DNA from: Halosolutus halophilus
Lineage (GTDB): Archaea > Halobacteriota > Halobacteria > Halobacteriales > Natrialbaceae
Assembly (NCBI RefSeq): GCF_022869805.1
Contig: NZ_CP094974.1
Span: 3,596,001 to 3,660,000, forward strand
Direction: 5' to 3'
DNA length: 64,000 bases
Shown: piece by piece, positions 41,680 to 45,151 of the stretch
Numbering within the stretch: the stretch's first letter is position 1
Layout of the letters: the number at the start of each line of letters is the position of its first letter
Notes under the pieces: generated by a model
Told to the model about the DNA's origin: nothing
The model's input: only the letters and a program-made list of their open reading frames with translations
Databases searched by the model: none
Made by a program: the position numbers and the translations under genes

Positions 41680-43041
41680 TCAGCCGAGCACGGCGAACGA
41701 GAGCACGAGCAGCGCACAGATCAGCGCCCCCGACAGCGTCGCGAGGAAGTTCACGCCCTGGTTGCCGAGTACGGACCCCTCGAGGGTCGCTCCGAGGAGA
41801 CTGTCGACGGTCATCCCGACGAAGCCGGCGGCGACGATGATCGCGGCCCCGAGGGGGTCGACGTCGGCGAAGAGGGCGTACGCGATGCCAGCGACGACGG
41901 CCGCACCGACGATCCCGGCGACCTCTCCCTGCCACGTGACCCCGCCGTCGGTGCCGGGTTCGACCGGTTCGAACGTGGTGATCAGGCGCGGCGTCTCGAA
42001 GACGCTGCCGATCTCGCTGGAGAGCGTGTCGCTCATCGCCGTGGCGACCGATCCGGCGAACGCGAAGAGGAACAGGGTCGGTTCGGGGTCGCCGGGGAGC
42101 AACGTTGCGGAACTGGCGGCGTAGCCGAGCACGGCTGCCAGTGCGACCGCCGCGTTCCCGAGCACGTTGCCGCTGCCGCGAGCTCCGTTGTTGTCCTCGG
42201 CGACGCCGAGGGCTTCTTTCTTCTCGTAGCGGAACTTCGTCGAGAGCCCGCCGATCGCGAAGAAGGAGATGAGGACGGCGAACCAGCCGTAGCCGCCGAG
42301 TACGATCGTCAGCAGGCCCAGCAGGATGCCGGTGAGCATCCCCGCGATCGAGGCCGTCTCGAGGGCGTAGGAGGCGTAGCCGAAGGCGACGGTGATCGCC
42401 AGTGCGGCGAGGATCTCGACGATCCCGAGTGCGGGTTCGAGTTCCGCGAGCAACCACAGGAGGAGACCGACAGAGAGCATGACGACCGGATCGTCGTAGA
42501 GGAAGAGCACGTCACGCAGCAGGGCGGCGAGCAACGCGCCGCAGGCCGCGAGAAAGAGCATCGCCGGCAACTGCGGTGCGACGACCGTGGCCCCCTGCTC
42601 GAGGCTCATCGAGGCGGCCATTCCGGCAACTGCGACGGTCGTCGCGAACAGACAGAACGCGGTCACGTGAACGACGTCGTCGTCCGTTCGCTGGCGGGCG
42701 AGCTGTTCGCCGACGTTCCCGTACCCGATCAGGAGGACGGTTCCGACGAAGACGGTGACCGACATCGAGGACGTGACCGAGATGAGTCCCAGCGCAACCC
42801 CCGCGAGCACGAACGTTATCAGTCCGTAGAGGCGGTTGTCCTCGTAGTCGCCCGGGTAGGCGAGCAGGTCGAAGAGCGGTCCGTCTGTGACGGCGAACGC
42901 TCCCAGCAGGACGACCGCAGCGATGGACAGCAGGACGACCGCAGCGATGGGTGTCGCGGCCCGCGGACCGACGATCGGGACGGCGAGCGTGAGCGTACAG
43001 AGGACCGCGAAGACGCCGGCTCGCCGAACGGGTGCAGTCAC
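41680..43041 (-). CDS. DUF92 (VTE6-like) integral membrane protein
   Basis: A 453-residue protein with about 12-13 TMs and the DUF92 core in the C-terminal half. The GGLSTKFRYEKKEALGVAE loop (conserved K-x-R-x-x-x-K-x-x-x-G) and the SDTLSSEIGSVFETPRLITT and GADGFVGMTVDSLLGATLEG-like blocks are diagnostic. The plant homologue VTE6 is a phytyl-phosphate kinase, and the fold is related to CTP-dependent lipid kinases. An isoprenoid phosphate is therefore a plausible substrate. GTG start. Two TM blocks near the N-terminus (AAVVLLSI, AAVVLLGA) come from an exact 24-bp tandem duplication. The neighbouring genes are cis-prenyltransferases, which fits isoprenoid metabolism. Confidence 0.85.
   Translation of the reverse strand: MTAPVRRAGVFAVLCTLTLAVPIVGPRAATPIAAVVLLSIAAVVLLGAFAVTDGPLFDLLAYPGDYEDNRLYGLITFVLAGVALGLISVTSSMSVTVFVGTVLLIGYGNVGEQLARQRTDDDVVHVTAFCLFATTVAVAGMAASMSLEQGATVVAPQLPAMLFLAACGALLAALLRDVLFLYDDPVVMLSVGLLLWLLAELEPALGIVEILAALAITVAFGYASYALETASIAGMLTGILLGLLTIVLGGYGWFAVLISFFAIGGLSTKFRYEKKEALGVAEDNNGARGSGNVLGNAAVALAAVLGYAASSATLLPGDPEPTLFLFAFAGSVATAMSDTLSSEIGSVFETPRLITTFEPVEPGTDGGVTWQGEVAGIVGAAVVAGIAYALFADVDPLGAAIIVAAGFVGMTVDSLLGATLEGSVLGNQGVNFLATLSGALICALLVLSFAVLG
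42904..42950. repeat. Exact 24-bp-period tandem duplication within the DUF92 gene
   Basis: A 23-nt unit (CAGCAGGACGACCGCAGCGA plus TGG) occurs twice with one base between copies, giving a 24-nt period. It is in frame and encodes IAAVVLLS followed by IAAVVLLG in the N-terminal TM region, i.e. an eight-residue insertion relative to a single copy. Confidence 0.85.
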
Positions 43042-43263: not shown

Positions 43264-43869
43264 GTGGGCCTGTACGAACAATATCTTGCGTACCGGATCC
43301 GTCACCACGACGGCGACCTCCCCGAGCACGTCGCGCTGATCATTACCGAACGGGATCTCCTCGAGGAAGGTGCCTACGAGACCCTGACGGACTTCTTCGA
43401 GTGGGCGTTCGAGTACGCCTCTCGCGTGACCGTCTACGTGAGCGTCCTCGACACCGCGGCGGTGCCGACCCTGCGGCGCGAACTCGAGACGATCGACGCG
43501 CCACGGGAGGTCGCCGTCCGCGGCCCCGGCGACAGGACGCCCGCCGACGCCCCGATCCAGATCGGCATCGGACTCGGCGGCAAACACGAGTTCACGAGTG
43601 CCGTCCGGAACCTCGCCGAGAGCGTCGACGCGGGCGACCTCGACCCCGATCGGATCGACGACGAACGCGTCGAGCAACACCTGATCTTTCCCTCCGAACC
43701 GGACCTGGTCATCAAGACCGGCGCGGAACGGCTCTCGGACTTCATGATCTGGCAGTCCGTCTACTCGGAACTGTACTTCACCGACGTCAACTGGCGGGAC
43801 TTCCGCAAGCGGGATTTCCTGCGAGCCGTCCGAGAGTTTTGCAACCGATCGCGACGGTTCGGTCGGTAG
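43264..43869 (+). CDS. Degenerate cis-prenyltransferase paralogue (UppS-like, lacks catalytic DGNRR)
   Basis: A 201-residue UPP-synthase-family protein. Its N-terminus (YEQYLAYRIRHHDG, then EHVALIITERD) aligns with the nearby true synthase (YEQLLTREISG, THVAVIQDGNRR) but replaces the DGNRR catalytic motif with TERDL. The C-terminal half keeps the family form DLVIKTGAERLSDF then WQSVYSELYFTDVNW, ending NRSRRFGR with an RxG at 198-200. This is the pattern of the non-catalytic eukaryotic subunit NgBR/Nus1: no catalytic Asp, RxG retained. GTG start; a TATA-like CGTATTG lies 23-29 nt upstream, supporting a leaderless mRNA. It may instead have another role. Confidence 0.8.
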   Translation: MGLYEQYLAYRIRHHDGDLPEHVALIITERDLLEEGAYETLTDFFEWAFEYASRVTVYVSVLDTAAVPTLRRELETIDAPREVAVRGPGDRTPADAPIQIGIGLGGKHEFTSAVRNLAESVDAGDLDPDRIDDERVEQHLIFPSEPDLVIKTGAERLSDFMIWQSVYSELYFTDVNWRDFRKRDFLRAVREFCNRSRRFGR

Positions 43870-43877
43870 TCCGCCCG

Positions 43878-44108
43878 TCAGGACGCAGCGTCGGAGTCGA
43901 TCGTCGGGCGGACGACGGCCAGAAACGTCGCGAGCACGCCGACCAGCAGGAGCACGAGTCCGCCGCCGATCGCGAGGAACTCGACCGATGTCGTGTGGTC
44001 GATCGCCGCCGCCGGATGTCGAAGAGCACCGTTCACTGCGAGCGCGAGGAAGACGGCGAGTCCGACCCCGATCGTTCCGGTCCCGGACGCGAACAGACGG
44101 CGGTCCAT
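43878..44108 (-). CDS. Small two-TM membrane protein downstream of uppS
   Basis: A 76-residue protein with two TM helices (about 12-30 and 44-67). The first follows RRLFASGTGTIG and the second is EFLAIGGGLVLLLVGVLATF. It starts 92 nt after the uppS stop on the same strand, so cotranscription is likely. The end is convergent with the UppS-like paralogue gene (gap 8 nt). Function unknown; its position between two cis-prenyltransferase genes is suggestive only. Confidence 0.65.
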   Translation of the reverse strand: MDRRLFASGTGTIGVGLAVFLALAVNGALRHPAAAIDHTTSVEFLAIGGGLVLLLVGVLATFLAVVRPTIDSDAAS

Positions 44109-44200
44109 ACTCGAGGTTCGTAGCCGCCCGAATTGGAGGTTTCGATCGACGCGACGCCTCGATCGGGACGCTGTCCGTTGCGATCGACGGAATCGCGCCG

Positions 44201-45151
44201 TCAGTCGGCGGCCGTCGTCCCCGCCTCGATCGTCTCGAGGTCGTCCTCGTCGGGTCGTTCGGCGATCGGGAGCGAGTCCCGGAACCGGGCGACGATCGAC
44301 CGCGCCTCGGGGAGGTCGTGGTCGCTGACGGCACCGAGCAGGGCGAGCGCCCGGCGGGCGCGGGTCCGCCGCCAGGACTCTTCCCGGGATTCGTAGGTGC
44401 GGATGCCCCGGAGGAAGTCGGTCTTCGAGAACTCCGGCCAGTACGGCGTACAGAAGAAGACGGCTGCCTCGTTGCCGTTTGCGTGCCACGGCAGGAAGTT
44501 CGAGGTGCGCTCGTCGCCGCCCGTCCGGATGATCAGGTCGACGTCGCGGACGGGGTCGTCGTACAGTCGCCGTTCGATCGTCTCGACGTCGATTTCGGCG
44601 GGATCGATGGACCCCGCTTCGACGTCGGCGGCGACGCCCCGTGCCGCCTCGAGCAACTGCGATCGGCCGCCGTACGCGAGGGCGATGTTGAGGACGAACT
44701 GATCGTAGCCGCGGGTGCGCCGTTCGGCGTAATCGACGGCGTCCCGGACCCGCTCGGGTAACTGGTCGACGGCACCGATCGCGCGAATGCGGACCTCGTT
44801 CTCGTGGACCCGATCGGCGTCGGCGAACTCCCGGAGTTTCTCGCGGAGGAGGTCGAACAGGGCCTCGCGCTCCTCGGGCGGGCGCTCGAAGTTCTCCGTG
44901 GAGAAGGCGTACAGGGTCAGTTCCTCGACGCCGATCTCCTGGCACCACTCGAGGACCTGTTCGGTCGTCCGGGCACCGGCACGGTGGCCCTCCGTCTCGT
45001 CCTCGCCGTTTCGGCGGGCGTACCGTCGATTGCCGTCCTGAATCACTGCGACGTGGGTCGGCGCGCCGGAGATCTCTCTGGTGAGCAATTGCTCGTAGGC
45101 AGCGTCGACGCGCTGGCGAAGCCACCGCTTCATCGGTCTATTGGACGTCAT
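44201..45151 (-). CDS. uppS: Long-chain cis-prenyl diphosphate synthase (UppS family)
   Basis: A 316-residue cis-prenyltransferase that extends a prenyl diphosphate with IPP units to make the long-chain polyprenyl (dolichol-type) carrier. The catalytic block DGNRRYA (D39 to A45) is intact, followed by YAFSTENFERP and IRTGGDERTSNFLPW with a downstream Glu for Mg2+. A segment after this (HANGNEAAVFF) departs from the bacterial WQ-x-x-Y-x-EL-YF form, and the C-terminal tail is longer and acidic with no RxG. The paralogue about 330 nt away has the converse features. ATG choice is either this (MTSNRP) or the later MKRWL codon. Confidence 0.93.
   Translation of the reverse strand: MTSNRPMKRWLRQRVDAAYEQLLTREISGAPTHVAVIQDGNRRYARRNGEDETEGHRAGARTTEQVLEWCQEIGVEELTLYAFSTENFERPPEEREALFDLLREKLREFADADRVHENEVRIRAIGAVDQLPERVRDAVDYAERRTRGYDQFVLNIALAYGGRSQLLEAARGVAADVEAGSIDPAEIDVETIERRLYDDPVRDVDLIIRTGGDERTSNFLPWHANGNEAAVFFCTPYWPEFSKTDFLRGIRTYESREESWRRTRARRALALLGAVSDHDLPEARSIVARFRDSLPIAERPDEDDLETIEAGTTAAD

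Follow-up and report, generated by a model that had tools for sequence, protein, structure and literature searches.

Homodimeric E. coli UppS carries both halves of the cis-prenyltransferase active site on one chain. Human DHDDS borrows part of its active site from its partner NgBR: the RxG backbone of the NgBR tail binds the S2 phosphate, and the terminal carboxylate of that tail contacts R37 and R85 of DHDDS (PMC7573591). A C-terminal helix-turn-helix of DHDDS makes the tetramer and prevents a homodimer from completing its own active site, and DHDDS alone shows weak homodimer activity (PMC7573591). The yeast counterpart combines Rer2 or Srt1 with Nus1. An archaeal example, formed by MM_0618 and MM_1083 of Methanosarcina mazei, reportedly goes back to a study by Emi et al. 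2019. PMC8131916 describes this pair as a heteromeric cis-prenyltransferase with C45-50 products. The MM_0014/MA1831 type, of the same family, is homodimeric. Our literature searches outside subscription journals found no paper on a haloarchaeal heteromeric cis-prenyltransferase.

The window analyzed here is a 64,000-nucleotide stretch of the complete 5.06 Mb chromosome of the haloarchaeon Halosolutus halophilus (NCBI: NZ_CP094974.1). The only PF01255 genes of this chromosome, here termed A and B, converge within the window with 331 bp between their stop codons (Table 1), which bears out the sequence-only reading of two UPP synthase paralogues about 330 bp apart. Both score above the PF01255 gathering cut-off of 27 bits, B at 235 bits with a full-length match (residues 37-258, E 7e-70) and A at 92 bits with a match confined to residues 98-200 (E 6e-26). 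We propose, with a probability of roughly 0.9, that A and B are the obligate subunits of a heteromeric cis-prenyltransferase that makes the C55/C60 precursor of a dolichol-type carrier. The halves united on the UppS chain would here be divided between two proteins, which share the UppS fold; B resembles UppS in its substrate residues and A in its C-terminal half.

Table 1. Features of the A/B locus (positions numbered within the window)
Feature	Position	Strand	Remarks
Neighboring DUF92 membrane protein, divergent from A	41680..43041	-	PF01940, E 1e-60
Gene A, putative noncatalytic NgBR/Nus1-like cis-prenyltransferase subunit	43264..43869	+	201 aa, GTG start
TERDLL, A residues 28-33, at the place of DGNRR	43345..43362	+	invariant in 94/94 haloarchaeal A
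WQSVYSELYF, A residues 163-172, presumed dimer-interface strand (E169 equivalent to E213)	43750..43779	+	
RxG motif, A residues R198-F199-G200, followed by one residue and the stop	43855..43863	+	RxG in 54/55 A
C-terminal extension of B, about residues 262-316, in place of RxG	44204..44368	-	predicted helical
Gene B, putative DHDDS-like catalytic cis-prenyltransferase subunit	44201..45151	-	316 aa
HANGNEAAVFF, B residues 223-233, archaeal B-family signature	44453..44485	-	two-residue insert
DGNRR, B residues 39-43, catalytic Asp and allylic-diphosphate site	45023..45037	-	Asp, Asn and Arg kept in 54/54 B

To compare the two proteins across the phylum, we built an alignment of haloarchaeal sequences (94 A, 101 B) and of their counterparts in about 40 further genomes of Halobacteriota, with UppS of E. 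coli, human DHDDS and NgBR, and yeast Nus1 as references. The DHDDS and NgBR letters were identical to their PDB chains and those of E. coli UppS agreed with PDB alignments; the Nus1 fragment was two substitutions off, and the letters of the chain were used. Eight substrate residues were scored (D26, N28, R30, N74, R77, R194, R200 and S202 in E. coli UppS numbering). All eight are present in 54 of 54 B proteins and in none of 55 A proteins, where the maximum is three. The RxG motif has the reverse distribution (54 of 55 A, 0 of 54 B), the sole exception among the A proteins having Lys in place of Arg. The full substrate set is thus found on one subunit only, and RxG solely on the noncatalytic subunit, at its extreme C-terminus. 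The complementary losses noted in the sequence-only reading are exact and hold phylum-wide.

In A itself, T28-ERDLL occupies the DGNRR position, ExLYF and WQSVYSELYFTDVNW are kept and the chain ends in NRSRRFGR, as had been read from the letters of the plus-strand gene. TERDLL, E169 and RRxG are all invariant in the 94 haloarchaeal A proteins, which also back the GTG start. Across the phylum, all 55 A proteins keep E169 and end exactly one residue past the RxG glycine. Since the NgBR tail contacts the DHDDS site in the human complex, this fixed end is meaningful. TERDLL is not strictly conserved outside Halobacteria: methanogen A proteins have ISETDLL, VIAEDDL or MITEQDM at this place. Two loci, L152 and L153, encode an A eroded to about 165 residues that still ends in RRFG plus one residue; in these, the tail outlives the remainder of the domain.

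Like NgBR and Nus1, A has lost the catalytic Asp, keeps the E213 strand and has a single residue after its RxG (NxG in Nus1) at the C-terminus, and the ends of NgBR (RLGK) and Nus1 (NVGK) have the same geometry. VITE at the DGNRR place is also common to haloarchaeal A and NgBR, the haloarchaeal A consensus being LVITERDLL and human NgBR reading LVITEVEQ. Unlike NgBR, A has no N-terminal membrane domain; its N-terminus, MGLYEQYLAYRIRHH, shows no hydrophobic segment ahead of the domain. Identity between A and NgBR is only about 19-24%. A profile of A (A1) aligned with NUS1/NgBR chains end to end (17-202, E 3e-4 to 3e-3) and with catalytic enzymes mostly over the C-terminal half. An hhalign comparison of A1 with NgBR spanned 178 columns at 91% probability, a value owed in part to the shared cis-prenyltransferase domain. 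An AlphaFold2 model of A (mean pLDDT 84) returned cis-prenyltransferases generally in a PDB fold search, with no NgBR chain among the best 50 matches; what the search confirms for the predicted structure is the cis-prenyltransferase fold, not kinship with NgBR. That A would work like NgBR is well supported.

B shares with DHDDS the absence of RxG and the presence of predicted C-terminal helices. At or near the E213 position, it has a glutamate, where DHDDS has Cys. A PDB fold search with the whole B model gave human DHDDS chains as top matches over about 300 columns, although the superposition on DHDDS was loose (rmsd 8.4). The extension is modeled as helices 243-274 and 277-289 at moderate confidence (pLDDT about 60-90). 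D39-GNRR is present in B, in line with the sequence-only reading of the minus-strand gene; the same reading had called HANGNEAAVFF aberrant, which it is not. The segment is the ordinary archaeal B signature, with G226, E228, F233 and C234 each conserved in 101 of 101 haloarchaeal B proteins and W-x-A-x-G-x-E, including the two-residue insert, found in nearly all Halobacteriota B. The long C-terminus lacking RxG was observed as described, but it is no peculiarity of this gene, as Halobacteria B proteins in general extend 42-68 residues beyond the RxG column.

These features suggest how the two proteins may act together. B would supply the active site, in which DGNRR, the FSTENF..RP motif and R209, R215 and S217 would bind the allylic diphosphate and IPP. 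It would be unable to complete this site alone because its C-terminus continues as a helix instead of forming the RxG turn. The conserved WQSVYSELYFTDVNW strand would hold A, devoid of the catalytic half, in physical association with B, which would depend on this partner. The RRFGx tail of A would then cross the interface, where its RxG backbone and terminal carboxylate would make the two substrate sites of B complete, in the manner of the NgBR tail in the DHDDS site. By analogy with the DHDDS helix-turn-helix, the C-terminal helices of B may join two such units into a dimer of heterodimers. The product would be the polyprenyl diphosphate precursor of haloarchaeal dolichol phosphate, serving N-glycosylation and other glycoconjugates.

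Eukaryotic dolichol-type carriers exceed C70. Dolichol phosphate of Haloferax volcanii is C55/C60 (PMC3827465), which lends no support to a carrier that is "long" in the eukaryotic sense, as foreseen in the sequence-only reading. Because A and B are the sole cis-prenyltransferase genes of the H. halophilus genome, which contains no MM_0014-type enzyme, their natural product would be the C55/C60 carrier. The expected haloarchaeal product is thus shorter than that of the eukaryotic enzyme and also differs from the C45-50 products of M. mazei.

We then surveyed gene content in genomes of Halobacteriota. Our set of 145 Halobacteria genomes, each 90% or more complete, spans 59 genera. All 145 carry one A, with the match in two pieces in a few, and 144 carry B, the one lacking it being a 120-contig draft. 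The occurrence of A without a full-length UppS in many genomes, which would have spoken against the pairing, was not seen; the pairing fails in that single draft. In 110 Halobacteria genomes, no more than 6 kb separates the two genes, and in all 110 they converge. The 34 others retain both genes, either unlinked or on separate contigs. Outside Halobacteria, a search with the A profile showed A to be present along with B in 41 of 43 genomes, the remaining two carrying neither, and the convergent layout recurs in several other Halobacteriota families. At least two PF01255 genes were counted in 117 of 119 Halobacteriota genomes and none in two, the very genomes that carry neither subunit. The latter are MAGs of a single genus, about 91% complete, and their lack of PF01255 reflects either joint loss or incomplete assembly. 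Four haloarchaea have two B genes and a single A.

Two features of gene organization count against an obligate complex of A and B. Being convergent, the genes do not form an operon and are not co-transcribed, and they are unlinked in 34 of 144 genomes. The missing N-terminal membrane segment of A, unlike NgBR, and the moderate-confidence model of the B extension, with its loose superposition on DHDDS, also weigh against the proposal. Mirror-tree analysis was discarded as support, as the A-B distance correlation of 0.90 was no higher than that with DUF92 (0.89-0.91) and is uninformative.

Other readings of gene A can be weighed against this record. A receptor role has likewise been ascribed to NgBR, and this, along with the missing catalytic residues, would suit an A that is an independent, prenyltransferase-derived receptor, scaffold or lipid-binding protein unconnected to the reaction of B. 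The conserved parts of A, however, are those that would face a partner, namely the E213 strand and the RxG tail at its fixed end, even in the roughly 165-residue proteins of L152 and L153, and A converges with B in 110 of 110 linked cases; we hold such independence to be very improbable. The loss of DGNRR and an N-terminal half diverged from the family also recall a decaying uppS duplicate. Yet A is open and present in 145 of 145 genomes, its diverse alignment has more than 60 invariant columns, and the invariance of TERDLL in 94 of 94 haloarchaeal A marks a constrained gene rather than a decaying one. We give a pseudogene practically no credence, as conservation refutes it.

A stronger case can be made for B sufficing as a homodimer, with A a non-essential modulator of chain length, membrane placement or stability, given that B keeps every substrate residue and that DHDDS alone is weakly active as a homodimer (PMC7573591). 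Against this stand the absence of RxG from all 54 B proteins, set against its presence in 54 of 55 A, and the occurrence of A in as many genomes as B; for the relative in M. mazei, moreover, PMC8131916 states that the C45-50 products came from both proteins together. We judge a self-sufficient B unlikely. The assignment of one catalytic and one NgBR-like RxG subunit, by comparison, passes every available sequence test, accords with A and B being the sole PF01255 pair of the genome and has a precedent in M. mazei as described in PMC8131916. The same precedent removes the novelty that the sequence-only reading had implied for an archaeal heteromeric enzyme, since MM_0618 and MM_1083 are already described there as heteromeric.

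The relation of the haloarchaeal pair to the Methanosarcina enzymes was examined in a 117-row tree, in which A forms one clade (support 100), B another (89) and MM_0014-like proteins a third (100). A Methanosarcina genome in our set encodes an MM_0014 orthologue, closely similar to 7caq over its whole length, plus one A and one B, which fall in the same clades as haloarchaeal A and B, respectively. By elimination, MM_0618 and MM_1083 should be the Methanosarcina A and B, and relatives of the pair would then already give the mechanism biochemical support. The two systems are alike in being archaeal, in having two homologous subunits that act together and in yielding a glycosyl carrier lipid; they differ in that the haloarchaeal genes are usually adjacent and convergent and the C-terminal extension is longer in haloarchaeal B. 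Halobacteriota have three distinct classes of cis-prenyltransferase, namely A, B and the MM_0014 type. The third enzyme accompanies A and B in a few Halobacteriota (four loci), where it keeps all eight substrate residues and ends in ITLGG.

For the eukaryotic subunits, the trees are less informative. A free quick tree set NgBR/Nus1 apart from A on very long branches, and a tree constrained to group them with A had a log-likelihood 5.6 higher (AU p = 0.557), again with long branches. It is possible, though doubtful, that the catalytic/RxG split had a single origin predating the last common ancestor of Halobacteriota, and that eukaryotic DHDDS/NgBR was inherited from such an archaeal enzyme rather than arising independently. 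Literature searches outside subscription journals turned up no paper on an Asgard cis-prenyltransferase.

Two further genes lie close to the pair. The DUF92 gene is the sole PF01940 gene of the H. halophilus genome, occurs in 77 of the collected A/B loci, mostly those bearing A, and is divergent to A in most haloarchaeal loci. Because the DUF92 family includes the plant phytyl-phosphate kinase VTE6, this neighbor may take part in the metabolism of polyprenyl or dolichyl phosphate, a possibility worth testing. An ORF for a 76-aa protein with two membrane helices (43881-44108, minus strand) directly follows B in the gap separating the two genes; only 12 of 112 loci have an ORF like it, and we rejected it as a third part of the system.

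Together, the evidence says that a two-part enzyme is probably the rule across Halobacteriota, so that M. mazei is no special case. Eukaryotes and M. mazei already provide examples of such an enzyme; what is new is its haloarchaeal anatomy, the strict phylum-wide pairing, the corrected view of the B motif and the three-class picture. Gene A matches models named "undecaprenyl diphosphate synthase" and is liable to be misread as a redundant copy. The evidence says instead that A would be the obligate noncatalytic half of the only enzyme able to make the glycosyl carrier in these cells. Free of a membrane domain, A could provide simple, soluble models of how the RxG tail works, a mechanism that is altered in human NUS1 disease. 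The pair also lends itself to genetic testing in Haloferax and offers a way to approach the possible archaeal origin of the eukaryotic heteromeric enzyme.
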